From Lasiosphaeria ovina (lineage: Eukaryota > Ascomycota > Sordariomycetes > Sordariales > Lasiosphaeriaceae), in the NCBI GenBank assembly GCA_033439765.1, contig JAULSN010000002.1, positions 124,001 to 188,000 on the forward strand: DNA of 64,000 bases, written 5' to 3'. The notes beneath the pieces were generated by a model. The model did no database searches. It saw nothing but the letters and a program-made list of their open reading frames with translations, and was not told the DNA's origin. Below, in pieces: positions 3,311-61,800 of this stretch. Position 1 is the stretch's first letter, and each line of letters begins with the position of its first letter. Made by a program: the position numbers and the translations under genes.

Positions 3311-4187
3311 ATAATAGACAAAGAAAAATAAGTAATGTGAGTCAATAGAGTAACAGGTAAAATGAATAAAAATAGTGAGGGACCGAGCTTAAAAGTGTGC
3401 AGGCGCAGGTGAGCGCAATACTGGTGAAGGATTCCTTGAAGCCGATGAGGGTGGAAAGGTCGTGCCGGACAGCTCAGAAGGCTGCCGAGGAGGAGTTTGA
3501 CCGCGAAAAATTGTCTCTGGGAGAGCGGACGGGAAGGTATGTTTGGTTCGTGCATGAGACCACACGCAAACCAACCAGCTCGAGAGCCATCCTCGGCCAT
3601 GTCCAATTGAGCCCAACAGGACTTTCTCTTCGGTCTGTGAGGGAATCTCCACGCTAGCCTCGCTTGTGTTGTTGACTGGTTTGCCAGGCCTCCATTCGTG
3701 GCTTTTGGGGTGGTGTCTGCCCGCAGCGACGTTGAGCAACTAACTTACGGCGGACACTTTCCCTGGGAGGCTGGATTTGGGGCGTCTCAGATTCTAGCCG
3801 TCCTCTTTCCTAGGATTACTATGTAGCGTTACCTAGTTAGACCCCAATTCACTAGAAAGAATCATAGATACTAACAACGTAAGCCAGAAGAGAGAAACGG
3901 CTGACAATATTGCGCAGGCTGAACTTGGAATTGCTTCAAGAGGTCGGCACACACAGACTGTGGATCTTGCGCGAGACGGCGAGAAAGTCATTATACGTCT
4001 CGTCGCCGCCACCGTCTCCGGGCAGACTGTCGCCGGCAAGACTGTGCTCGGTGCCCGGGCCGGGCCAGAAGTGGTACACGGTTAAGAACGAGAGAAAGAC
4101 CGGGAATCCACGATATTCTCCACATCTGCCACCTTCTGGGCCGCCGTGCGAGTTGGATCCTCCTGATCGCTCCCAGGGACGGGCGCA

Positions 4188-4480
4188 CAGCGTTGGACTC
4201 GTTGTCGATTCGGAAGAAAATCGGGTTAAAGTTGATGTCGATGATGCGAGAGTCAGCTGGCGCAAGAGTAGCAGCAGGAGGAGTAGCACAGCGTTGGACT
4301 CGTTGTCGATTCGGAAGAAGATCGGGTCGAAGTTGATGTCGATGATGCGAGAGTCAGCTGGCGCAAGAGTAGCACGAGTATCTCAGTTGCATGCCTTGCA
4401 ATCGGGCCATTGGCAAGATCCTGCAGCTCTTCAAGGTCCTGGGCAAATTTGTCGCGCGCTCCATGATTGCGGTGGTGAAT
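4188..4480. pseudogene. Rearranged HECT E3 ubiquitin-ligase fragment (Ufd4/TRIP12-like)
   Basis: The plus strand at about 4400-4470 encodes AIGKILQLFKVLGKFVARSM, a conserved helix of the HECT N-lobe in Ufd4/TRIP12-type ligases. The residues that normally follow directly, DSRIIDINFNPIFFRI, are found on the minus strand, twice (about 4190-4270 and 4288-4370), as a tandem duplication of about 99 bp with a few substitutions (NFNP versus NFDP). The two halves therefore point toward each other across an inversion breakpoint. No start, no catalytic Cys region and no long ORF accompany them, so this is a dead fragment. Confidence 0.65.
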
Positions 4481-7925: not shown

Positions 7926-8157
7926 CTCTTTCTCGCCCAGTCCTTACCTAGTACTTTCATGCCCTCGTTCTCCCCCATCCTGTCGCTCTCTCGTCTCTTC
8001 CGTCCTGTCGCTATCTCGCTCGATCATTATTGCCATAGGTACTCTTTCTCGCCCAGTCCTTACCTAGTACTTTCTTGCCCTCGTTCTCCCCCATCCTGTC
8101 GCTCTCTCGTCTCTTCCGTCCTGTCGCTATCTCGCTCGATCATTATTGCCATAGGTA
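7926..8157. repeat. 116-bp tandem duplication in the 5' region of the surface-protein gene
   Basis: Bases 7926-8041 and 8042-8157 are two adjacent copies of a pyrimidine-rich 116-bp unit that differ at a single position (TTTCATGCCC versus TTTCTTGCCC). The near identity shows a recent duplication. It lies about 100 bp upstream of the ATG at 8260, so it is probably within the promoter or 5' UTR of that gene. Confidence 0.95.
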
Positions 8158-38645: not shown

Positions 38646-39880
38646 GTGGCAATTTCCAAGCTTGATATTACAAGCGGCAACAGTGGTCTCCCGACATGGT
38701 TAGACACAGAATCCCCAAATCCCGACGGCCGGTCATTGCCTTATATTGTGCAGCAGTGCGTCGAAGCGTTGCCTACCTTCCGTGCAGTCCAGCTGCTCAG
38801 GAAGATCGACGAGAAATACCGACAGAACTACACCGGCGACAAGCCTTTCACATGGGGGTTGGCCCAGACGAATTCGACAACGGGGCAATTGGAGACAAGA
38901 ACCGTCCGCTTCATACCCTTGCGGTCTCTAATGGCACCCCGGATTGTTTTGCGGTTCTCGTCAGATACGGAGCGCAGATACATCATCGTAACTCTCATGG
39001 ATTCTTCCCACTCCAGCTCGCCATTCACTACGGAAATACAGGCCTTGTCAACGCAATGCTGGAGCCTCTCGAAGACATTGCCAACACTCCGGGGCACATG
39101 ACGGTCGCTCAGTTGCAACAGGCGTGCGGCACCACATCCGACTTTACTTGGGACAAAGAACTTGAGCCGCTCAGACACTTCAACTTCCTCGCCAGCCTGA
39201 TTATAAATCGATCGCTTTCCCAGGGCTCCATTGGTCCATTCAAGCAATGGGCAGAGGCAAGTGATGGCATCACTCAGTCCTTCATCAACGAAGCCTCGGT
39301 ATGGGGTAATACCGAGACACCCCTCCTTTTGGCAGTCGATGGGCTGTGCATTTCTGCCGGCGCTATGCGACCATTCAGTCGGCAGCCTATCCTCATGCAT
39401 CTGCTGTCCACCAGTGATGTTGCCCTTGACGCCCAAGACAACCGCGGTAGGACTCCTCTTCACGTGGCGGTCTGGCTCGGCAAGTTCTGGGAGGCTCAGC
39501 GGCTGGTAGAGCGGGGCGCCAGGCTTGACATCGACTGTCCAGAGCTCGGAGCCCCTCTGAACTGTGCGTTTAGTGAACCTCCCTACTATTTTAAATTCAT
39601 GGGTAATGGCCCGACCAAGGCTATGGTGACATCCTTCATCGAAGGCCGCAACACCTGCACCCGGTACCTGAGGACGTCAAAGAGAGCCTGATCGCGTTGC
39701 GAGCTGAATATGGGGGCAAACACGAACTTGTACCTACCGTATCCGTCTTTCCGCAACGGGGGAGGTGGCGCTAAAGAGAGACACGATGCTACCTGTAAAT
39801 GCGGAATGTATGGGTGCAACGTTGATCTTCCGATTGCGAGAGAAATTCAGGAAAAGCTCAAGCGACTCGGGTTAGTTTAA
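38646..39880 (+). pseudogene. Ankyrin-repeat gene broken by frameshifts
   Basis: Coding character moves between frames. LPYIVQQCVEALPTFRAVQL and KIDEKYRQNYTGDKPFTWGL are in one frame (38646-38900). DKNRPLHTLAVSNGTPDCFA then VLVRYGAQIHHRNSHGFFPL and later NRGRTPLHVAVWLGKFWEAQ are in the next (to 39690), both clear ankyrin repeats. After the stop at 39691 a third frame reads PEDVKESLIALRAEYGGKHE. At least two frameshifts are needed, near 38900 and 39650, and neither fits an intron. It is a decayed ankyrin protein. Confidence 0.6.
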
Positions 39881-42851: not shown

Positions 42852-45800
42852 TCATAGGATAGATACCTTATACCCCAGATGCTCCACGTCGATCATCTCC
42901 CCATCAACCACCATGTGCGTGAGGTCAATATCCGCGTCATACAGACGTTCCATGTCCTCGAGGGGACGGTACTCGCCCGGTTGAAAAGCGTGCTTCCCCG
43001 GCTTTGGTTTGCCGTGTACTGACGTCCACCCGTCTTCCAGAAACATGGACAGTCCCTGCGACGTAGAACTGGAATATCCCCAAGCGGCAGCCCGCGGAGC
43101 CACCGCCGCCTCCAGCGGGCGGCAGTGCCGCCAGGCGGCGCGCGCATTCTCCAGGGTTGCCTGTCCTGCGTAGTAGCCAGCGGCTTCCCGCAAGCTGGTG
43201 AGGACTCCCTTTCTGCCGGAGCAGAATAGACGGTCCCAGTCGTGTTTGCCGTCTGCGATGTTGGCCGAGAGCAGCAGCGCTTTCAGCGGAACCATGTAGG
43301 GCGGCGGCGGCGGGTTAGGCTCATGCTCATCGTCGTCACTATCGTCGCTGCTGAACAAGAGGAGGACGTTGGGGTCGTCGACAGCGTTAGTCGCAAGAAA
43401 CGCAGCGACCGTGTCGGCGCAGTCTGCTAGTATCTCATCCGCCGTCGACCTCCGGGTCAGGTACTGGGCCACCATGTAGGCGAGCACCGTCCACACGGAA
43501 ATCATGCGTATGTTGGACCGTCCTAGGACAAGACGGACCTGCTGGTTGGGCGACAGCCCCATTGCCAGCAGGCCTCTGACCACGCTGGGCTGCACGCCCG
43601 CCGCGGCCGAAAGGAGAAGCGACATGCGCCCCGTCCCGCGCACCAGCTCTTGCCTGGCCGCCAGCTTGCCCTGCAGATACTCCCAGTCTCCGACCTTGCG
43701 CGCCACCCAGTGCACGAACGAGTAGTTCTCGTCGAGGACGAGGTTGTCAAAGTTGTAGACCCGCATGACTGCAAAGCCCTCCATGTTCTCGCGGGCCGCG
43801 GCGATGCGCTCAAAGGCGTCCAGCCACGCGCGTCTCGCAACTGCGTGGCCCTCCCAGGCGCCGGCGTCCTCGAAGCCAGCCTTCAGCTTCTTGGTGCTGG
43901 CTTTGACGTTGAGATTTGTCAAAAACCAGAGCTCGGCCAGGTCGACGCGCGCCTTGAGGACCGGTCTGGGGCACAATGCGGTGGGAATGTCCAGCCTGCT
44001 GCTCTCCTCCTCCGCCGAGATTATGTAGTCGTGCAGGGTCCTGTGGAAGAAGTCGATGAACACAAGCGGCCGCGCGCGCGACATCATCTCCCAGCTCGTG
44101 ATCTCGGGGTCGCAGACTATTGTCTCGAGGATCCCCTTGCTGTGTCTGACCAAAACCTCGGCAGCGGCGACGCGGTCCTGGACTTCCTTGCGCGAGTAGG
44201 TGCGGATCGCTGCCGACGTGGGGAACTCGGCGTCGTCGAACAGCTCGTCGGCCCAGCTTGCCGCCACTGCGGGGAACGGCGTGCCGTAGCGGCTCATGAG
44301 GGACAGCACGCGGCGCAGTTTCTTCCTGTGCGCCGGCTCGATCGACTCGAGCAGCTCCGTGTAGAGGTCGCCGAGCTCGGTGGGGACCTCGTCGAGCGAG
44401 GCCTCCAGAGACTTGACGTCGTCGGTGAGGGCGACTTCGCCTTGCAGTTTTAGAAAGACTAGGTGCGCCCAGAGAAAGACTCCGCTAGAGAGGTCGGCGA
44501 CTCGAGATGCCAGCGGGTAGTAGTCGCGGAGACTGGCAGTCTCGGGCAGGCACCGCCTGAAAACGTCGTGGCCGTAATCTAAGATGTCACAGTAGTTGAG
44601 CTTGTGGAGGGTGAGTTGCTTGTTCTCGGAAAATATAGAGGTAAACTCGGCGTGTGGACGAGAGCTGACGAGCAACTTGACGTTGGGGTTCTCTCCCCAT
44701 TGGTTGAGAAGAGCTGCGAGCGTTGCGTGGTCTTGGCCCGAGGTCCTATTGTTCTGGAACTCGTCGAGGCCGTCAATGAAGATGCAGAATCGGTATCCTT
44801 GCTTCGGCATGTCGTTGATGAGCCTCTCAAGGGCTTGATGAAGGAGGGCGGGTCTGAAAAAGGGTTTGTCGTGGTATGTCGATGTCGGAGTCGTCTGGAA
44901 ACTGCTAATTGCGTCTGGGAAGACCGATGGAATCAGCCGCGGGCAGGCTCGTAGAACCCCGAAAAGGATCGACCGGTAGAGGCCCTCGAGCGAGTTCTGC
45001 AGTCCGCTCTGGCCGCCCTTCCAGGCAAAGAAACGGGCAAACACGAGCTTCTTGTCTCCGGCCCACTCGTTCAGCTTCTCTTGTGTGCGTTTGTGGGTCG
45101 AAACCAGCTTCATCAGCGTTGATTTGCCGGAGCCGGCTTTGCCGGAAACGTGTAGAACTCCAGCTCCCTGTGCAAGCCAAGTCTGAAAGTATTGCCTTGT
45201 TTTCGTGTGGATTGGCGGTTCCCTTTCGGGTACGTAGCCTTGGTCGTTTTCGCTCTCCATGCCGTCTAAATCTTCGATTATCCAGCGAAAGGTGCGAGCC
45301 TGGGAGTCCCGGATCTGGTCCTCGCGGAAGTATATCGAGTCAAAATATAGCTGCGCCAACACTCTTGCCTCGGGCGTTCGCTGCTCGCAAGCAATCAGCA
45401 AAGCCCTCCGATGGGCCTCGAGCTGGCGAGTTTCGCCGGCTTGCCCGTTGGTATCCGTTGACATTTTTGCCACTTCATGCTGCAGGTTCTTCAGGTCCCC
45501 GGTTAGCTTGGTTTCCATTTTATTGAGCTGGGCGTGGACAAGCAGTTGTCGGTCGCTAAAGCTGCAGTCAGCTTTCTAGACGCTGTGATTGTGATGTGTG
45601 CACATGCAAGGAAAATGCGTGGTGGATTGCTTGAGGAATCTAAGGAAGCTATCCGCCCACAGGCGGAATATTTATAGTAGAGGGATAGGGGTTACTTGTT
45701 ACTTGTCAGGGCTCAAACCGCCGTCTGAATAGGCGGGTCATAACGGGCTCACCCCTTAGTCACACGGCGGTTTGAGCCCTGACAAGTACGCCTGTGCCCA

Positions 45801-49882: not shown

Positions 49883-50736
49883 ATGCCGTCGATCAAGCGC
49901 TCGGCGTACGCGCTGCTAGACGGCGGGTCCGGGCCGCGGACACAGCCATCACCGCTGTGGACCAAAGCGCTGGCGGTGCTCGCCGGGCTGGTCGTCGCGG
50001 GCCTGAGCTTTGCGCTGGGGCGGCACTTAGCAGCAGCTTCAGCTTCCGCTTCAGCTTCCGCCGAGCGCGGTTTCGCCCACGTTCCGCCGGGCCTGTCGTG
50101 TAAGCCAGCCATTCACCCAACCTTTAATTCCTCCCGTCTAAAGCATCTGGTTATTTGCTGATATTCCGGGATATAGTGGAAACGGCGCCGCACGTGTTCG
50201 TGTACAACCGCACGTTTGCAGAAAAGTCGGCCGCGGCCGACGCCGCGTGGAGCGAGCTGTTCCCGCGGCAGGCGGGCTACTTCTCGCACCCGTCGCTGGC
50301 GCCGCAGCGGTCGACGTTTTCCGTGTTCCACTACCTGCACTGTCTCGTACGTCTGTCCATCCACCCCCACACCCTTGACCCAAAAGAAGAACTGACAGCA
50401 GTGTAGAACGGCATCCGGCAGGGCTACTGGGCGGTGCACGCCGCAGCGGTGGCGGGCGAGAAGTTGAACGCCAGCAGCCTGCCGATGATGATCTCGGCGC
50501 CGCACGTGCGGCACTGCATCGACCTGCTGCGGCAGAGCCTGATGTGCAACGCCGACCTGACGGTCGAGGTCAAGGACGAGGCGGCCGGCGGCGTGCACGG
50601 CTTCGGCGAGGAGCACCGCTGCGTCGACTGGTCGGGGCTCGTCGGCTGGACCAGCGCGTGGGAGACGCGGACTAAAGAGCAGAAGGAGCAAGCCCAAAAG
50701 CACGGGGGCGAGCAGATGCATCACCACCACGATTGA
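49883..50736 (+). CDS. UstYa/DUF3328-family oxidase 1
   Basis: Three exons (49883-50099, 50177-50346, 50407-50736) give 238 residues. A cytosolic head is followed by one membrane helix (about 25-48, WTKALAVLAGLVVAGLSFAL) and a lumenal domain. Both copies of the family motif HxxHC are present: FHYLHCLN (about residue 124, split by the second intron) and HVRHCIDLLRQSLMCNADLT (about residue 163), and then HRCVDW near the end. The tail is His/Gln-rich (QMHHHHD). UstYa proteins are membrane-bound, probably copper-dependent enzymes that carry out oxidative steps, mostly cyclisation, on fungal ribosomal peptides. The O-methyltransferase gene is convergent with it, its stop 164 bp away. Confidence 0.9.
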
Positions 50737-50899
50737 TGGGACAAATGGGCACGGGGGGTGGTTTGAATTTTTCTTCGACATGGTTTTTGTTTTACTTTAT
50801 TCTACTCTGCATCAAAGCCACGGACGAGGTATCAGCGTTGCAGATTCTATGCCAGTCTTTTTTCACATCCCCGACGTATCTATGGCGTATCAGGACTAT

Positions 50900-52538
50900 T
50901 TACTCTGCTGCTTCCGCTACCGCTGGCGCAGGCTCAGGCTCCCAGGTGAACTCGATCAGCCCGATGGGCGACGCGGGCAGCTGCACGACCGACCTAAGGC
51001 GGAACCGCGGGTCGGCCTCGGCCACCAGCCCCGTCCACTCGTCCATGGTGCGCTCCTTGCTGTTGAACATGGCCATCATGGCAATGTCCTTGCACCTGCA
51101 CCCGTGACAAACCAGGTAAGGTAGTCAGCAAAACATGTCACAGCAAACGATGGCTCGCGGTGATCAAACGTACCTGACTTGCCGCTCCTCGTACAGCGTG
51201 GTGGCGCCGGGCGGCGGGATGCTCAGGTCGTTGATGACGACGCGGGCTCCGGGCTTGAGCGCCGATATCAGCTGCCGCAGGATGCGCAGGCAGTAGTCGT
51301 CGGACCAGTCGTGCAGGATCATGCGGAAGAAGTAGGCGTCGGCGCTGGTGACGGGCTGGGGCGTGAAGAAGTCGTGGCTCTGCAGCGCGACCCTGTCGGC
51401 GCTGCGGGCGGGCAGCTCGGCGCGGGCCTTGTCGATGACGTCGGGCAGGTCCTGCACGATGACGTGGAGGTCGGGGTGCTTGTCGGTGAGAGCCACGGCG
51501 AAGGTGCCGGCCGAGCCGCCGACGTCGACGACGGTGGCGCCGTGGCCCAGCGCGCCCCAGTCGTAGGCCTCGAGCGCCGCCGTCGGCTCGAAGCCCGGCA
51601 TCGTCTGCAGCATGCTCATGGCGCTGGCGAAGCGCCGCGCCCGCTCCTGGTCGCCCTTGAGCGTCTCGAAGAAGGGCACGTCGGTGCCCTCGGCGAGGTT
51701 GTGCGCCGTCTGGTTCGGCGGCCGCCCGCTCTTGGCCGCCGTGGCGCCGTCGGCGGCAGCCCCGGGCCAGGCCGTGTGCGCCAGCGCCGGCACGACCTTG
51801 TGAGCCGAGGGCCACATATCCTCGCACACATTCCCGATGAAGTCGTGCAGCACCGGCACGTTGGCCAGCATGGCCGACGTGGCCGAGTGCGCGACGTGGC
51901 CTGGCCGCGGCCGCACCAGCAGGTAGTTGGTCACGGCGTGCTGCACCAGTCGTGCCATGGCGTCCTCGTCGGCATCGCACCGCCGCGCTATCTCGGCCAC
52001 TGACACCTCCTCGCCCACGGCCAGCTGCGCCGGGATCTTGTACCGGTACAGGGCATGCAGGCTGCAGAGGTCGTACTATATTATGCGCGCCCGCGTGCGC
52101 GTGATATCAGAATCAGGCTGCAAAAGACTGGTATCCACTCGTGGGCAGGCAGGCAGGCAGGCAGGGAGGGAGGGAGGGAGAGGACATGCGGAAGCAAGGG
52201 AGTATAGCCGCGGACGGAGATTCACGTTGCCCTTGCCCAAGACCGAACCAAGGCAAACTCCAGATAATACCAAGACATACCGCGTGGCCAACTTGGTTCA
52301 GCAGCCACCCCATTGGCCCCAGGAGCAGGGCGTTCAGCTCGTCCAAGGCTCCGAGGGCGGCGGCCAGCTGCTGCTCGACATTGGGCGGCAGCGGGAGCTT
52401 TGGCGGAGCGCCCGGGGCGAACGACGGGCTCGGCAGGCCATTCTGCTGCAAGTACGACTCGATCGAGGTTGTGTGCTGCAGGATCGCAGCTGCCAACTGC
52501 ACCGTCCGCGGCTGATCCGGATCCGGAGGGGCGGCCAT
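50900..52538 (-). CDS. Class I SAM-dependent O-methyltransferase
   Basis: Exons complement(52281-52538, 51174-52075, 50900-51095) give 451 residues. Introns are 205 bp (GTATGT...TATAG, phase 0, with CTGC/CCTC simple repeats) and 78 bp (GTACGT...GTGCAG, phase 2). The N-terminal dimerisation part leads into YDLCSLHALYRYKIPAQL and a winged helix. The SAM site is VVDVGGSAGTFAVAL and the catalytic His motif ILHDWSDDYCLRILRQL; ERTMDEWTGLVAEADPRFRL closes the COMT/AflP-like family-2 fold. It lies inside the proposed RiPP cluster, where it could methylate a hydroxyl, phenol or carboxylate of the product. Confidence 0.92.
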
Positions 52539-55500
52539 GGTTGTAGGCTAAGGTGCCTATGCGGGCTGCTTGTGAAGAGCTTGGTAAGAGTGTCCGGTTG
52601 TAGTCACAGGACCGGAGGCACGTTACGTTTGCTCTTCTGCTAGTATCTCCGGCTGCAACCGAGTACGTGTGTGCGAGCGTGTTTGTACTGTCCTGTATGC
52701 GGCAACTGCTGGCAATACTTTGGCAAAGCTACAACTACCAACGCAGTTAGCCAGAGCCAACGGATGTGCAGCAGGTAATAAGTTGCAACCAAGTAGACGG
52801 GGTAAAGTCTGCAATAGGAGCCAGAGTGAAAGTGAAAAAAAGGGGACGGTGCTTGCTAGCGGTGGTGTGAGTGAGGGCGGCGCCGCGTGACGGACTTTGC
52901 GTATGTTCCGGATTTCCTTACCTAGGTCAGGTAGGTCGTATTTTGTCCCTTAGTGCGAGCTGCCGGATGATAGGGCCTTTTGGACGACTGGGGTACAGGA
53001 CGATGCATTTAATAGCCGACTGAGGAGGGCTGCTGGATGGTGGACGCCGGATGCCCAGCTGGAGCTATCTCACCACCATCCAAACCCGCCCTGATGCCAA
53101 TTGGGGAGTATTCTTGCACCGGCAACATCCGCTGCGGCCGGGCTACGACTCTCCACAGCTAGAGAGCAGAGCTGTTCAAGGGGCCGTCCAGGCTTGGAAC
53201 GAAGTAACCAAAGAATCGGACTGTGCCGGATGTAGGGACTCGATCCATCGCAGCGGCATCGCAGCGCAGTGGATTCATTGGCACCGTATATGCCCCAATG
53301 CGGTGAGAGATATCCTTTGGATTTCTCACTCGACAGTTGGACATCCCAAGGTAGGCAGGGCACTTGTAGCTGCCTTAGCTTCCTTCGTGCTCAACTCGAA
53401 GCCCACTGAGTATCGCCGTAGGTGGTATTCACCATAACTCCGGAACCCGCGTAAACGGGCGTGTTCGCCTATTGGTGGGTGGCTGTCCGGACTGCGTACT
53501 CAGTATTGGTTACATGCTTGTCGGGTGGTTAAGGTGAGGTGTTGGCGGACGGAGCGGCGGACGTGACGAGGACGGCAAACCCGCCAGCCGTGCTTCCCGC
53601 ACAGTTAGTTTCGTTTGTTGCAGTGAACTGGGTTGAAGGCGGGTGTTTGTGCGGCCATGCAATATCTGCAGTTACCAGTAAACACCGCTAGACCAGATGT
53701 CTCTGCTACCTACCTCGATAACACTGGCAGCCGGGTTTTACCTCTGTCCAACTCTGGTTACTCAACAATGTAGATAGGTAAAGCGCCTGGAGGCAGTTAT
53801 CTACAGCACAACCTAGAGGAAAGAGTCGAAAACGGAAGGGCCCTAAAACTGATCTGCCGACTTACGTGAGCCTCGAGAGCCACATATGGAGCCTGGAACG
53901 GCGAGTCGCAAGTCATCCATCCACTCCATTCCCGCGGTTGTGTCGTTGGAACTTGGGGCCGCAGGGTAGGGTGGGCATTGTTAGGGCTGGTTTAAGCTCG
54001 TTCGGGGCTAGTAGCAGTGGACCGTTCGGCCACCTCGGTGTCTGCACTGTGAGGTGAACATCCATTGGCGGGTCCCGTAACCCCATCTCGTTTCTGATTG
54101 GCTCTCGTCTCCGGCCCGTCCTAGAAGAACGTCTCTTGCAGGTCTGTTGATGGGGTTCCATTCTGTACCAAAAAGTCCCAGCACAGGACGCCCACGCAAC
54201 AAAAAGCTGGGCGGAAGCGCCACCATATGCGGTCGGACCACCGCGCCGCCGCGTGCGCGTGCTGGGCTACCCAAGAGGCCACGGGGGGTGCGACTGGGGG
54301 TTGGTCGGGCAGGCCAGGGACAGGTGTGTAAGCGAATCCAAGACTAGGCGATTAACCACTGCATGCTCCCGATCCCATCCAGACTTTCCCTCTCTGGAGC
54401 GCGGCGACCACGGCTGCAAGGTGGTAGGTCTAGCGACAGCCCGCATATCCAATCTTCAGTCGAGCCGATGGACACCTGGTTCATCAAGGTTGCCAAAGGC
54501 GGGGTTTTGCTCCCTCGGCGAGCCATGGATGCTTGGGTGAAGATTTGAGTGGGTGTGTGAGCGGATGCTTTGGGATGTGGCTGCCGGATGCAACTGCTGT
54601 GTGGACAGGAACTCTACAACTCGAGTGCAGTGAGTGGATGGGCAGTAGCCACCAAGGCGCTCTCAGTCTCTCCCTCTCCCAATTGAAACGATCTGGCGAT
54701 GCTCAAGTTTCTCTAACTCAGACAATGCAGCCCCAATCAGCCCGGCACTCCATCGACCTTGTGAGCTCAGTCTTGGCTTGGGGGATTTGGTTCTGTGCCT
54801 CTTCCAATTGATGTCAGACCTCTTCCCCAGCCGGGACGGTTCAATTGCCGTGCCGTGCTCGACTACCTACCTTGGGGTTGTCTAGGTAGGTAGGTAGTCT
54901 CCTGTGCTGGCTGCTTGTGCAGATACCATGTATGCGTTAGCTTGCAATGCAATGATATTGGATGATATGGTGGGCCGGTTGCGGATGTGCGTACATAGGT
55001 ACTGCGCATATATTATTCGACTTTTTTGGCGGTCAATCGGCCGAGAAGAAGTCCGGTCGATTCCCTGCTTCCAATTGCCGCGGGCGGGTGCCCCGACGCA
55101 GTGGTAATGCCTGCCCGTGGCCGGGTACATGTATTTATGTACTATGGGACATACTTCGTGCATACGTTAATATGCAAGCGTTGAAAGAACGGAGCCCACC
55201 TTCTTGGTCGCTCGGGTTTCCACCCGCTTGGCCACCTCTGACATGTTCGCCGCCCATTGGTGTCCATTGATTGTGTGCCGCGTGCGCACTATAACATAAC
55301 CAAGGTCGGTTGTTCGAACGAGAGTCGCAGTGTGGGGGAATTGTTGCGCTGGGTATTTCGCGTACATGCAATGTCGATGTCGACGCCCACACTCACTGCG
55401 TTCACTGTCGAAGGTGCACCGCGCCCGCAGCTCATCATTGCGCCGTGTGGCTGCTTTGAGATCTTGCTGGGATCCGCAGGTAGAAAGGGTGCGGTTGCGA

Positions 55501-56609
55501 GTACTACTGTACAGTACGACGAATTGTATGCAGGAACTGTACTGTACTCCGTACTGTAAAATACAGCGCATCACGGTACGAAGTATATACATACCCTCCT
55601 TACGCGTATCTGCGCGGAAAATTCCGTAAGGAATGTGCGCATCTCCCAATCACTCCACCAATTTCGTGACATTGACAATAGAAAACAAGTCTATCCAAGA
55701 GCAAGATAGTTCCTGTCGGCGTTCCTGTCGCTGACGTCGTCACGCGGCGTGGCTGTATAGTACCAATGTTGCTGTGTCACGACATGACGGGTTCGGCAAC
55801 AAGCAAGTTGCTTCGAAGGAAGAGGACTTTTCCCACAACCTTGGTCGAGGTATTGCAGGGCCCTGGGCCTCTGCAAATTGCGCGCGCACGCACCCAAAGC
55901 TTCGAACGGGCGTGGCCTGGGAGGGAGTGGGGGAGGGGCAGTGTCTTCATCTGTCCATGTGCGCGGAAATTTGGCTAAATGCTACCCCGCGGCCGCTAGC
56001 CTTTGAGCTTTGGGCTTGCGTAAGAGAGATAACGATAACGTCAGAAAGAAACTTCCGCCGAGGCTCAGGAACTTCCGACCGGCCTTTTCCCAAAATTCCA
56101 TCAATCCCAGGCTCCCAGCTCCCAGCTCCCAGCTCCCAGCTCCCAGCCCCCCTGGACCTCCCTCTCGGAAGCTCCCCTCCCCCTACCTTCCTTGCCCCGA
56201 GCTGCAGCATCGCAATCCGCTCGCATTGAGCTGATGGACCTCGGAAAACATGCCATTTCCGAAGAAACCGAACCGAGGGGGGGCCGTCGAATATTGATAC
56301 ACATCACAATTCACAAAACAAAACGTAATTAGAACACGAGAGGTACAGTTCAAGGTAGGTATGTGGTTCGAGAGCAGAATGTCGTCATGAAAATAGCAAA
56401 ACCATCATTCAATCCATCCCAAAGAAAAATAAGTTGTAAACCCCGCACCCCGCACCTCACATCCCATCCGCACACCCTTTCCATGGAAGTTCCCGCAGCG
56501 CGAGCCCCCCCCTCCCACTTCCTTAGGTTCCCTCCCTCCCTAATCAGATTGGTGATCCGGCCAACCAGCCGGTTAACCCACCCGCACACACACACACTGT
56601 GACCCGTCT
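52539..56609. other. Gene-poor core of the RiPP cluster
   Basis: Four kilobases with no gene I can support. A 128-codon plus ORF at 53051-53437 (MPSWSYLTTIQTRPDANWGV) is Trp/Arg-rich without motifs. The segment has GGTAGGTAGG at 54886-54896, a GTACTGTAC-rich self-complementary patch at 55500-55562, and CTCCCAG repeated five times at 56107-56148. A lost cluster gene is possible but not visible. Confidence 0.4.
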
Positions 56610-56869
56610 TTAGTCATCAGTGTAGAGATCTGGGTAGATGATCTCGGAGTCAGCGTCCGGCTCGGGGTAGACGATGGTGTCGTCCACGTCTGGCTCCGGG
56701 TAGACAATGAGGTCGTCCACATCCGTGGCTGTTCGACATGTTAGATAATCGCAAACAACCCTCCGAAAACAGAGTTTGGTGTATAAGTCGACTTACACTT
56801 GGGCGTGAGCACCGGAGCGGCGAGCACGCTCATGGCGGCGGCCACGATGAGGAAGAAGGCAGTCTTCAT
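56610..56869 (-). CDS. Putative UstYa-type RiPP precursor peptide with three core repeats
   Basis: Two exons, complement(56797-56869, 56610-56728), with a 68-bp intron (GTAAGT...GAACAG, phase 1) give 63 residues. Residues 1-18 are a signal peptide (MKTAFFLIVAAAMSVLAA), then PVLTPK. The mature part is three consecutive 11-residue repeats: DVDDLIVYPEP, DVDDTIVYPEP and DADSEIIYPDL, ending YTDD. Each has an acidic spacer and an I-V/I-Y-P core, as in fungal peptides whose Tyr cores are crosslinked by UstYa enzymes. Unlike known precursors there is no Lys-Arg site between repeats. Frame, splice sites and repeat periodicity are seen directly; the RiPP role is inferred from two UstYa genes within 7 kb. 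A small secreted acidic protein is the alternative. Confidence 0.8.
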
Positions 56870-57877
56870 CTTAGCTGCAAGTGTGGATGTGGATGTGGAT
56901 GTTTGGTTTGGATGTGATGAAAGGGGTGGGAAAGATGGCCGAGGTGCTGTGGGAGACGGACACGCAACACAGAGGAAGGCGCCAAGTAACTGACCGGCGA
57001 GGTGAGATGATGCTGGCGGTGATCGGGCCATCTTATATGTAAGTCGGCTCCATACCTACCTACCTACCTACCTACCTTGCGTCTAGGACCTTGGGTTACG
57101 TATCAACGGACGGAAGCCGACCCTGCAGAAGGGTAGAGGCCAGCAGACGAGAGAAAGTGTCAAATTATTGCATCTGCATCTGCACTGTGGCCCCGGCACC
57201 TCTCGGCGGCTTTAGCGCCTGTTCTGTGTCTCTACTGCCACGACCCACGCAGGGAGAACTGGATGTTCGTCAGTCCAAGTCAGTCGCAACAGGAATCAGG
57301 GCCCGACTTGACGCCCTGATTGGTGGCACCTGCAGACGAGGAGACGAACTTGTCGAGAAGTGCGGGAAGGGGAGTGGAGCGAGTGGATAAATTACATGGG
57401 GCAACGGATCCATTGTCCATGGATAGGATGGGATGGAACATGGAACGGAGGCGCGGGTGTGTTAGTCTCGTCGGTGGGTTGTCGTTCCATTCCCAAGCTA
57501 CCTTCCCTAGCTTACCTTACCTGCCTTGCCTTGCCTCACGCGCGCTAGAATAATCTATTATCAGCTATCAGTCCAGACCCTCCCCGATCGCTCGCCGACC
57601 CCAGCAGCCGGCAGGTTGGACCGTGCTAGTTCTTGAGGGAGCACGTATCCTTGCCCAATCCCACCGCACCGGGTCATGCTGTGCGTGAAGCCCTTTTCTA
57701 CCTTCGTCCTCCTCAGGCATCTCCCCGCTTCTCACACCGAGCCGAGAAAGTCACCAGCCAAGTCTCCCCGCCCACTCGTCCTTGTCCTCTTGTCGTCCTT
57801 GTGTAGTTTGAGGAGAGCTTCACTCCGGCCTCTCACTCGACCCGCCTTGACACATCCCCAATACTGTCACCACCAGC
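56870..57877. promoter_or_regulatory. Divergent promoter region of precursor and UstYa 2
   Basis: About 1 kb separates the start of the minus-strand precursor and the plus-strand UstYa gene, so the two may be co-regulated. It includes TGGATGTGGATG repeats just upstream of the precursor (56884-56900), a (CCTA)n array at 57053-57076 and a second CCTTACCTGCCTTGCC tract at 57513-57535. A short TTATATG is at 57032. Confidence 0.5.
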
Positions 57878-58800
57878 ATGGCTACCGTGGAGAAGGAGCC
57901 GCTCCTCGAGAGCCTGTACCATGATGTCGAGGACACCAGCAGCGAGAAGAGCTCCAGCGAGCTCGGCCCACCACAGCAGCAGACCAAGTCTCCACGCCGG
58001 TGGTGGCTCTATGCCGGACTGGTCCAGCTTCTCCTGATCGCCTGCTACACGGCCGTGTCGCTCACCGTGATACGTGCCACAATCGACCTCGACTCGGTCC
58101 CAGACATCCACGGTTTGTCCCTGAGCATCTCTATAAATATCGAAGAAACATGTCACTAACACACGGCGCAGCTTTCGCCGGGCTGGCCGTCAAGTACAAG
58201 TTCCGGCTGTACGACAACTTCGTCAACAGTCCGTACGGGGGGGAGCCGACGGCGGCGAGCGACGCGGCGTGGCACGATCTGCTCAACAACATGAGCGTGC
58301 GAGTGACCGCAGAAGAGCTGGCGGCGCACGGGCAGACATCAGTAGCGCTGCCCGAGGGCGGCGGCTACCTGGCGTGGCTGGGCGTGTTCCACGAGCTGCA
58401 CTGCGTCAAGATGCTGCGGCAGTGGTCGTGGCGCGAGCACTACTTCCCCAACATGACGGCCCACGACCACATGCACCAGATGGTGCACATCGACCACTGC
58501 CTCGACTGGCTGCGCAACGCCGCCATCTGCCGCGCCGACACCAGCGCCCTCGCCGTCTTCAAGTGGGACCCCCGCATGCCGCACCCCATGCTCAACACCC
58601 ACCGCGTCCCCCACCGCTGCGTCGACTGGGACGCCCTCATGACCTCGCACGCCGACCGCCTCGTGCCCCACCAGGAGGTCGTCAATCTCAAGAACCCCCT
58701 GATGGCGGACGCCAAGGCCGCCGGGGCCGCGGGAGCCGGGGCCGCCGGCGACAAGAAGCCCGCGCCGCCGGACTCGGGCGTCGGCGTCGAGGTGGACTAG
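57878..58800 (+). CDS. UstYa/DUF3328-family oxidase 2
   Basis: Two exons, 57878-58112 and 58172-58800 (59-bp intron, GTTTGT...GCGCAG, phase 1), give 287 residues. A 45-residue cytosolic head leads to one transmembrane helix (WLYAGLVQLLLIACYTAVSL). The lumenal domain has FHELHCVKMLRQ (about residue 151) and HIDHCLDWLRNAAICRADTS (about residue 185), both HxxHC motifs, then LAVFKWDPRMPHP and HRCVDWDAL. The Ala/Gly/Pro-rich tail is longer than in the first UstYa, and the two are clearly diverged paralogues, as is common when each makes a different bond. It diverges from the precursor gene, which fits joint expression. Confidence 0.92.
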
Positions 58801-61800
58801 GAGGTGTTGCGCCACAACACAAATACTTGTAAACAACAAAAAATATCACACATAGCTGTAGTTAGCGAGCGGCCATTTCTGTAACTTGTCGATAATTACC
58901 ACTTGTTGAGTTTTTCTTCTTTTGGACGCAGCAGAACCTGCATATACCCATTAACCGTCTCTCCTTCATAACACAATACCACGTATACTGTACTCCTTTG
59001 CATGGCATGAGAGTGCTATGTACCAATGATCAGGCGTGTCCCCGTCGTTGTTGCCAGGGATACTTGAAGGTTCTCGGCTCCACAGGCCTAGCTTGAACAC
59101 TCAATGATACACATCATCCTCACATACGAGACGGTTGATCCCTCAAGAGACACTGGCTCGCTTTAAGAAAGGGGATGCAGTTCATACAACAAGCAATTGC
59201 AACGTGTATGTGTATGTGTACGTTATTCAACTGTGTTCATATTCTGGTGTGGCATATGGTGAAGACATACACCACATCTCTCCTGGTGCCTTATATCGTG
59301 AGTGTTGACTCTTCAAATGAGCAGCAAACACTTGAACATATACCAAACAATATCTCTTCAGGTCAGACTGTTCGACACCTCGAGGTTCGCCTCACCAACG
59401 AACCCGGGCCATTTTCTTCACCCCTTGCGTCATTTGGGAACTTCTTGGGCAATGGAGTTGCGACAAGGCGGCAGCGTACCGATGCGCAATGTCTTGAGAC
59501 CGGCCATATCCGGCAGAGCTTTCCACTGAGAGACCGCGTTCACCAGATCCGGGTCAAGTCACCATAGTGGAGATTGAAGTGGCCTACGAGGGCACGCCGT
59601 TGTGGGCGAAGACCATCTCATCTACGAGGATTCCCGAACCAGCATCCAGGTACCCCAGGCACCAGCGGGGAACAACAAGGTAGCAGCCCACTTGCCGTCG
59701 GGCTAGCTGTGGAGGATATTGCGGCCGCAGGAAGAATCAGGCGCTTCGAACAGGCTTGCGCCTCGAAGAAGTTGTCGGCTGCATCTCGATGCCGTGGGGC
59801 TCTCACAACGGCGGCAGATTCCAGAGAACGAGGGAGGAAGAGCAAATCGAGGCCGAGCATACCGGTATCGACACGGCCGGGTGACCCAGGTAGACGAGCC
59901 TAGAGCGAATCAACAAAGAAACGCTCGAAGACGGTACCTGCCTCCTTGACAGACTGTGCCATTGTCGCGGCGAGCGTCTGCAGCAAGTCCTGCAATACCA
60001 GCTTCCCGCGAAACAACCGGGAATTGTTGGCCAGCGCAGCCAGAACATGGCTGAATCAGCCGCTTTGGCGCCGACGACGGCCGTAGTCCCCCGAGAAGTC
60101 GTCAATCTCCTTCTCGAACGGGAACTCGGCGAACCGGGGCTTGGCCGCGGCGCCTGCAGCGTCATGACCTGTTTGACGGCCGCGAGCCGCTCCGGCTCCG
60201 ACTCTGGCCGCCACACGAAGGCCGGTAAGTCCGTCTGGTACGCTTTTAGGAAAACCCTCTTGGCGAGAATCGGTGGTATCCCGGTACCTTGCTTGGGGCT
60301 TCGGCTAGAAAGTACCGGAGAGGCCCTGAAAACAGTCCGTCTGTCAAATAAATGGCAAATACCGCCGGCTGGTCCAGCGCCTTGGTCACATCACATCGGT
60401 AGTTGACAACCCCATCTCACTTCGCCAGATCTAGCCCACAAACGCGAGGTAGCCCGGGATTCGACTCAGCCGGAAGGTAAAATCCACCCACCAGCTAAAA
60501 AAAGGCACTGAGCGGAGATGACCAGGGGTTTGGACCAACAGATGGCGTCCTTGGCCGAAGGAGCTAGCTGTCGAAAACACGGGGTAAGGAAGGGGAGGTC
60601 CTGGCTGTTGCGGCCGCCAATGTCAAGGGCCCTTGGCTCTCCGCTAGGATCTGGCATATCCCGATGTCCTCCCTGGCTGCAGTGATCTCGAGGTGCCTGC
60701 ATGGATGGTGCTGCCAGGGCGTGTTAGTCGAGTCGAAAATGCCTAGGGCATTTCATGAGCCATGGGTGCTGTTCTCCGGTGGCGAGCCCGGAATAGCCTT
60801 TAAGCACTGGAGAGAAACAAGAAATGGGGTTTTCGCGTCTCCAGGTCGCTCACGCGTTGGAGCGAATCGTCGGGTGTTTTGGGACTTTGGGGCAGCCAGC
60901 GTACACAACGAGCCGGGTGGCTTGCCGCGCCCCACGGAATTCGTTTCGGTAGGGAGCGTACTTTATGCAGTTGGTCGATATGAGCATCCATGCCTGCCTT
61001 TTTTGAGCTTGTTGATGGCTTGTTGTTTGGGCTTTAGGTTGTTGGCTTGTTGGCTCATTGGTCTTGGCGGATAGCTGGGCCGCACAAGAGGATCTCGATT
61101 CTGGGCCCTTTGGTGTTACCCATGCATCTCACATCATCCATGTATGCGAAGGGTCGGCGCCGCCAGACCTAGACTTGGGATTATTCTACCCTTCCAGTGA
61201 CGGTTCCGTGTTGTGGAGAGGGGGGGTAATCCAACCCAACTCAGCCTCCAGCTCTGGCTTGAAGGTGCTTCCATCAGCTTATCGGTCGGGTGCGGTCCGT
61301 CCGTCCTTCCGTCCGTCTCACGGTATGGGTATGTGATTCAGAGCGGGGTTGAGTAACTGGCTCGGGCGAGTGAAGCGCAAATACCTACTAAGTACCGTGC
61401 TTCTAAAGGATGCCAGCTCGGCGATATGTGCAGTGACACCGTTGGGGGGCGAGTTGGCCGTATTATCCAATGCCACCTTGTTTAGGTAATTGCTCAATGT
61501 CGTGATAGCGTCGTAGTCGGGTCCAGCTCTTCTCGGTACCCCGCAATGCTGCGTTATTGTTCTGATGAAAGATGCGAGGATGCTCGTTGGTTGGTGCGCT
61601 CGCTCGCCGATCGCCGCTCCACCTAGGATACCCTAGTCGTTTCTCTCCCGTGCCCCGCCCTCACCTTCAGCCCTGGATCGCGGACATGGTCATGGATGGG
61701 CTCAACAGCACTTGCCCTGTGCACTGTGTTGAGTCCTTCGGAACCGTAATTATGTGCGTATTCCGTACATGCAGTGAAACCCGGTAGGTACGGAGAATCA

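Follow-up and report, generated by a model that had tools for sequence, protein, structure and literature searches.

A candidate UstYa-type RiPP locus with a conserved, Kex2-free precursor peptide in Lasiosphaeria ovina

Introduction

Within 9 kb of a 64,000-nucleotide stretch of the Lasiosphaeria ovina genome (contig JAULSN010000002.1 of assembly GCA_033439765.1, positions 124,001 to 188,000 of the forward strand; hereafter the window, numbered from its first letter) lie four intact spliced genes, which encode two UstYa/DUF3328 proteins (UstYa-1 and UstYa-2), an O-methyltransferase and a 63-amino-acid (aa) repeat peptide with a signal-type N terminus (Table 1). The locus is real and conserved, and what is new about it is a putative UstYa cluster for a ribosomally synthesized and post-translationally modified peptide (RiPP) whose precursor has no Kex2 site. 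We give about an even chance to the reading that UstYa-1 and UstYa-2 crosslink the tyrosine of every I-V/I-Y-P repeat in this precursor; crosslinking is the best single reading of the locus, and ring formation, which we infer, is unproven. An original prediction, made from the letters of the window, had proposed such a cluster: its observation is confirmed, and its interpretation is partly supported. Among the titles and abstract openings of the open-licence literature, we found none describing this cluster.

Results

A conserved repeat peptide without Kex2 sites

The peptide begins with a signal-type N terminus (called from hydropathy only), continues with a short segment to Lys24 and then carries three repeats (DVDDLIVYPEP, DVDDTIVYPEP and DADSEIIYPDL) followed by YTDD. 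Each repeat holds the core pattern I-V/I-Y-P, in which an Ile stands two residues ahead of the Tyr, and 14 of the 45 residues past residue 18 are acidic (computed isoelectric point 4.05). A signal-type N terminus followed by repeated Tyr cores is what characterizes a dikaritin precursor, and the small Tyr-containing repeat peptide of the original prediction is thus borne out, spliced and equal to a deposited protein: P0001 of Lasiosphaeria miniovina is identical over the full length, in a database that includes the window's own record. Relatives were found in Podospora didyma (90% identity), Echria macrotheca (84%) and Rhypophila sp. PSN 637 (75%), so that all four candidates scored in the peptide search, Lasiosphaeria included, match. 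Mean pairwise identity among the four precursors is 90% in the repeats, 72% in the signal part and 49% in the segment between, and no precursor has lost the Tyr from any of its three repeats. Comparison of repeats 1 and 2 within the window gene shows four synonymous codon changes against one amino-acid change. From four sequences and no formal test, these are indications that the peptide gene is under selection. The peptide is single-copy in the assembly, where only its own two exons were matched and no paralogues were found.

None of the four precursors contains a dibasic Kex2 site (KR, RR, KK or RK). Kex2-processed repeat proteins (KEPs) have such sites between their repeats; the window peptide therefore does not count as a KEP, and pipelines that require such sites would miss it. 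Two surveys of fungal UstYa peptides use Kex2 sites (PMC7329392, PMC12048977). No Kex2 sites flank the Tyr repeats, and since the precursor is not of the Kex2 type, the usual release of three separate cores does not follow.

Among the matches listed on the window's contig, the only tyrosinase lies at 1,456,002, 1.27 Mb away, which leaves the cluster without the tyrosinase that the older definition of dikaritins includes; this tyrosinase-free state fits asperipin-2a rather than ustiloxin. The original prediction had called the set minimal for want of a tyrosinase, peptidase or P450. The missing tyrosinase and peptidase weigh less than was implied: asperipin-2a is described with a single ustY gene, and a missing tyrosinase or peptidase as not uncommon (PMC12048977). 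We reject a canonical dikaritin or KEP, given the missing dibasic sites and the lack of a nearby tyrosinase among the listed matches.

Two repeat proteins lie near other UstYa genes of the assembly. On contig C27 (about 1,089,233-1,089,883; L024:1234-1884, + strand) lies a Kex2 repeat precursor of textbook form: behind a signal-type N terminus it carries ten copies of SEDSSEGVVTWADVG, with small changes and KR after each; its core has Trp and no Tyr, and it lies about 3 kb from a UstYa match at C27:1092678, with another at C27:1102354. On contig C12 (about 5,824,635-5,825,657; L021:3636-4658, + strand) a protein with nine EARHHKGQKPK copies, Asn runs and di-His motifs has no KR between its repeats and lies about 3.7 kb from a UstYa match at C12:5820194-5820920; it is a candidate for a second precursor without dibasic spacers. 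The repeat scan near other UstYa genes covered 16 stretches in 7 regions, or 9 of the 15 other loci, and returned mostly low-complexity or out-of-frame repeats; it misses the window's own precursor, because the gene is split and the third repeat divergent, and so cannot count Kex2-free precursors.

Two UstYa proteins with paired HxxHC motifs

The claim of two UstYa/DUF3328 genes with two intact HxxHC motifs each holds in the spliced models: UstYa-1 (HYLHC and HVRHC) matches PF11807 at 89.7 bits and UstYa-2 (HELHC and HIDHC) at 137.4 bits, against a curated cut-off of 25, so that both marks of the family are present in both proteins. In the aligned relatives, 31 of 42 for UstYa-2 and 29 of 35 for UstYa-1, the His and Cys of the motifs show either no change or at least 90% conservation; the alignment of 31 leaves out P0015, whose deposited model lacks the stretch of the second motif. 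In the structural model of P0005, which is 97% identical to UstYa-2 (mean predicted local distance difference test, pLDDT, 82.7), a long N-terminal helix (39-68) precedes the two motifs, which occupy separate helices (149-164 and 175-198). The weaker model of P0049, a relative of UstYa-1, places the motifs on helices 116-141 and 157-172, behind one long N-terminal helix. Compared with folds in the PDB, the UstYa-2 model gave 49 matches at E <= 10 and none at E <= 0.001, and its sequence gave none at E <= 1. No BURP domain, the hallmark of burpitide cyclases, was matched in UstYa-1, UstYa-2 or the precursor at E <= 0.1.

As modelled, these proteins resemble CctR, a member of the same Pfam family whose HxxHC(x)nHxxHC likewise occupies paired helices that follow a single N-terminal helix (PMC12435403). 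CctR hydroxylates an unactivated carbon of cyclochlorotine; it is a dimer with two coppers per monomer, requires O2 and electrons, and loses its activity when the motif is mutated; its proposed location is an organelle membrane, with the catalytic part on the lumen side (PMC12435403). The family is also reported to halogenate and isomerise, and the cyclase AprY and the halogenase ApnU, as cited in the same paper, are likewise copper- and O2-dependent (PMC12435403). Among ribosomal products, DUF3328 proteins are described as required for crosslinking in ustiloxin, asperipin-2a and phomopsin (PMC7329392). Whereas the substrate of CctR is a nonribosomal peptide, that of the window enzymes is proposed to be ribosomal, and their copper site is putative.

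Linkage in relatives

To follow the locus in other genomes we used protein matches on contigs of equal size, a proxy from which a shared contig is taken and which gives no gene distances. Relatives of the peptide and of UstYa-1 lie on equal-sized contigs in all three other species (6,970,587, 3,990,345 and 312,476 bases, the last in Rhypophila), and relatives of the peptide and of UstYa-2 in two of the three. UstYa-1 and UstYa-2 relatives share a contig size in five species, namely L. miniovina (1,907,573), P. didyma, E. macrotheca, Rhypophila decipiens (201,368) and Cytospora chrysosperma (1,141,646; locus tags VSDG_02065 and VSDG_02060). A random gene in 50 Mb would fall on a 312-kb contig in 0.6% of cases and on a 201-kb contig in 0.4%. 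The annotated L. miniovina relatives are 98% identical to UstYa-1 (over 70% of its length) and 97% identical to UstYa-2. Co-location in relatives, which the original prediction had named as its check, is therefore found at the level of contigs. In P. didyma the model numbers of UstYa-1 (519590) and the peptide (519592), which we take to run along a scaffold, suggest that the two are near neighbours. The UstYa-2 relatives of Neoarthrinium moseri (73%) and Diaporthe (69 and 68%) resemble it more than does that of R. decipiens (64%), whose congener has the peptide. The deposited model of C. chrysosperma VSDG_02060 (P0034) fuses a UstYa-2 relative with a short-chain dehydrogenase (PF00106), and probably represents two adjacent genes read as one.

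The assembly holds 17 UstYa-like loci (22 exon matches merged), 16 of them over the cut-off. When 17 loci are placed randomly, 4.0% of trials contain a pair no more than 8.1 kb apart; two further close pairs, on contigs C7 (2.4 kb) and C27 (about 9 kb), indicate that UstYa pairs as such are not rare in this genome. On contig C5 (70925-72046 and 93584-94183) about 21 kb separate the genome's best UstYa match from tyrosinase exons, and the two may belong to a more classical cluster.

The methyltransferase and the layout of the locus

An O-methyltransferase in the cluster span, as predicted, was recovered between UstYa-1 and the precursor, its main exon matching PF00891 at 98 bits. The closest solved chains are 7bqj and 7bqo (HpiI), which we take to be methyltransferase-like pericyclases. 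Where the aligned 7bqj chain has HKE, the window protein has HDW, a motif whose role in methyltransferases we presume, and for this reason it looks like an ordinary methyltransferase. Position is the basis on which it would count as a member of the cluster. O-methyltransferases are called never reported in dikaritin clusters in a survey that describes, in the lichen Clan R1 (Parmeliaceae), an O-methyltransferase between two UstY genes (PMC12048977).

Table 1. Features of the locus, with positions in the window (splicing by GT-AG introns)
Feature	Positions	Strand	Product and basis
UstYa-1	exons 49883-50099, 50177-50346, 50407-50736	+	238 aa; splice model and PF11807
O-methyltransferase (Methyltransf_2 family)	exons 52538-52281, 52075-51174, 51095-50900	-	451 aa; splice model and PF00891
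Precursor peptide	exons 56869-56797, 56728-56610 (including stop)	-	63 aa; 68-nt GT-AG intron
Sequence separating the start codons of the divergent precursor and UstYa-2 genes	56870-57877		1,008 bases
UstYa-2	exons 57878-58112, 58172-58800	+	287 aa; splice model and PF11807

The start of UstYa-2 is corrected here to 57878. The peptide gene stands 1.0 kb from UstYa-2 and 5.9 kb from UstYa-1, and the region between the divergent start codons is a possible shared promoter. UstYa-1 and the methyltransferase gene converge at 164 bases, and a gap of 4.1 kb separates the latter from the peptide gene. Eight of the longer open frames at 53.0-57.4 kb gave no Pfam match over cut-off, which agrees with the claim that no other intact gene intervenes, but the shorter frames leave room, and a small unannotated gene may lie among them. 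In a scan of 47-64 kb for hydrophobic N termini, all other hits within 49.9-58.8 kb overlap the four genes. Words common to the promoters of UstYa-1 and the methyltransferase and to the divergent region do not exceed chance: 12 seven-mers were shared where 7.0 were expected (maximum 14 in 60 shuffles), 2 eight-mers where 0.6 were expected (maximum 4) and 1 nine-mer where 0.0 were expected (maximum 1), a set that we judge unconvincing. A polyketide synthase (PKS) or nonribosomal peptide synthetase (NRPS) neighbourhood was rejected, because no such domain occurred in 40 Pfam-scanned open reading frames (ORFs) and proteins, other than the cluster's own, from the window and 30 kb past its right end.

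Discussion

The locus shares with dikaritins and KEPs a signal-type precursor with Tyr repeats next to DUF3328 genes bearing two HxxHC motifs (PMC7329392, PMC12048977). Like the ustiloxin cluster it has two UstYa genes, and like that of asperipin-2a it may need no tyrosinase (PMC12048977). Unlike dikaritin clusters it shows no Kex2 sites, tyrosinase or peptidase, and has an O-methyltransferase. Its cores also run the other way from those of ustiloxin, where Tyr comes first and Ile third and the two are cyclised to each other (PMC7329392); in the window the Ile stands two before the Tyr. Clan R1, with which it shares the placement of the methyltransferase, is described as having a tyrosinase and a sulfatase and no precursor found (PMC12048977), whereas the window has a precursor and no tyrosinase.

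The spacing of the cores is closer to that of plant peptides. Ring closure in plant cyclopeptide alkaloids traditionally joins the Tyr phenol to a carbon two positions toward the N terminus, and the cores of a clubmoss precursor read VLFYPSY, ILLYPSY and FLLYPY (PMC11253845). The plant burpitides (SkrBURP, ArbB2) likewise have short cores that recur and an aliphatic residue two positions ahead of the Tyr (PMC11253845, PMC12186524), and the VLFYPSY core of SkrBURP has Pro after the Tyr as well (PMC11253845). The coffee cyclase ArbB2 also takes Ile in place of Leu, less well, though in its native core the Leu stands three before the Tyr (PMC12186524). Burpitide cyclases are four-His dicopper enzymes, and the four-His sites of DUF3328 and BURP proteins have been likened to each other (PMC12435403). 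The window enzymes, however, have no BURP domain; the likeness, which would be convergent, is confined to the core spacing and the metal site. From these two features, the Ile-x-Tyr spacing and the four-His likeness, we propose Tyr-O to Ile-Cbeta rings. The full form of this proposal is a fungal counterpart of the plant cyclopeptide alkaloids, in which an undivided Kex2-free peptide would receive up to three such rings from UstYa copper oxidases, one for each acidic-spaced I-x-Y-P repeat; we offer it tentatively, as a possibility with the balance of probability clearly against it.

In such a pathway, the signal sequence would carry the peptide into the secretory pathway, where it would meet the lumen-facing domains of UstYa-1 and UstYa-2, which by analogy with CctR may hold paired copper ions. 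The acidic D-x-D-D/S segment ahead of each core could serve as the recognition sequence. Cu(I)/O2 chemistry would then take a hydrogen off the Ile beta carbon and bond that carbon to the phenol oxygen of the Tyr two residues downstream, with two hydrogens lost per ring and at most three rings per chain. The computed monoisotopic mass of residues 25-63 is 4430.974 as a linear chain and would be 4424.927 with three rings; for repeat 2 by itself the values are 1261.571 and, with one ring, 1259.556. The product might be released as a whole chain by a cut at the one conserved Lys that precedes the repeats; alternatively, a Pro-directed protease might cut the chain at the YPEP/D joints. Tailoring of the product by the methyltransferase is possible, and is the weakest step of the account.

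Several observations weigh against crosslinking of this peptide. Known UstYa precursors have the Kex2 sites that this one lacks; DUF3328 enzymes hydroxylate and halogenate too; and the model from which the UstYa-1 helices are read is weak (pLDDT 66.6). UstYa-1 and UstYa-2 relatives lie on different-sized contigs in Hymenoscyphus fraxineus and Periconia macrospinosa, and also in Diaporthe amygdali, for which the two may come from different assemblies. The peptide search found no annotated peptide in Neoarthrinium or Diaporthe, which also speaks against strict pairing: either the peptide is unannotated there, or their UstYa-2 relatives take other substrates. The methyltransferase gene lies 4 kb from that of the peptide, its protein has no strong hydrophobic N terminus, so that its action on a secreted peptide needs explanation, and the promoter words shared by the genes stay within chance.

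A rival reading is an unmodified acidic secreted peptide, acting in metal binding, in the wall or in signalling, whose closeness to the UstYa genes is incidental, the UstYa pair and the methyltransferase serving a small molecule. The acidity of the chain, its lack of Kex2 sites, the peptide-less annotations of Neoarthrinium and Diaporthe and the resemblance of the methyltransferase to small-molecule methyltransferases in the PDB all fit such a peptide, but UstYa-1 accompanies it on equal-sized contigs in all three other species and no PKS or NRPS domain was found among the ORFs scanned around the locus; we consider this unlikely. Nor do we expect, with a probability that we would call decidedly low, that UstYa-1 and UstYa-2 oxidise the Ile, Pro or Tyr side chains, for example by hydroxylation, and close no ring. 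CctR does hydroxylate an unactivated carbon, and other members of its family are reported to halogenate and isomerise (PMC12435403), yet the DUF3328-linked ribosomal products described so far as known (ustiloxin, phomopsin and asperipin-2a) are crosslinked at Tyr (PMC7329392), the very residue that is invariant in the three repeats of all four precursors.

The layout of the genes raises the further question of whether they form one unit. The precursor and UstYa-2, divergent and 1 kb apart, could be a RiPP unit adjoining another pathway to which the methyltransferase, perhaps with UstYa-1, belongs; the 4.1-kb gap, the convergence of UstYa-1 with the methyltransferase and the unshared promoter words agree with this division. 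Against it, UstYa-1 and not UstYa-2 is the partner that accompanies the peptide on its contig in each of the three other species, relatives of the two enzymes lie on equal-sized contigs in five species, and the lichen clan described in PMC12048977 has its O-methyltransferase between two UstY genes, which makes two units very unlikely. An ordinary dikaritin cluster with a Kex2-processed precursor would account for the signal-type N terminus, the Tyr repeats, the UstYa pair and the methyltransferase, all of which are there, but has next to no chance given four precursors devoid of dibasic sites, a closest listed tyrosinase 1.27 Mb off on the contig, and, for contrast, the presence of a true Kex2 repeat precursor at another locus of this genome.

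A conserved Kex2-free precursor beside a UstYa pair shows what Kex2-based searches would miss, and with three similar cores in 39 residues it is a short, directly testable substrate. If the reading as a fungal counterpart of the plant alkaloids is true, the locus would be the founding case of UstYa substrates invisible to Kex2-based mining, and would give one answer to why some UstYa clusters seem to be without a precursor, as two clans in one survey are reported to be (PMC12048977). Crosslinking of the Ile-x-Tyr-Pro cores, if it occurs, would mean that unrelated dicopper enzymes make the same ring in fungi and in plants.

Other features of the window

Outside the cluster, the scan of 47-64 kb found hydrophobic N termini at 59256 (+), 63446 (-) and 63153 (-). 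To the left of the cluster lie an NLR-like gene with NPHP3_N/NACHT domains (42855-45575, -) and ankyrin repeats (38666-39688, +). Positions 4185-4374 and 7926-8157 of the window hold two tandem duplications that are almost perfect, their units being 101 and 116 bases long.

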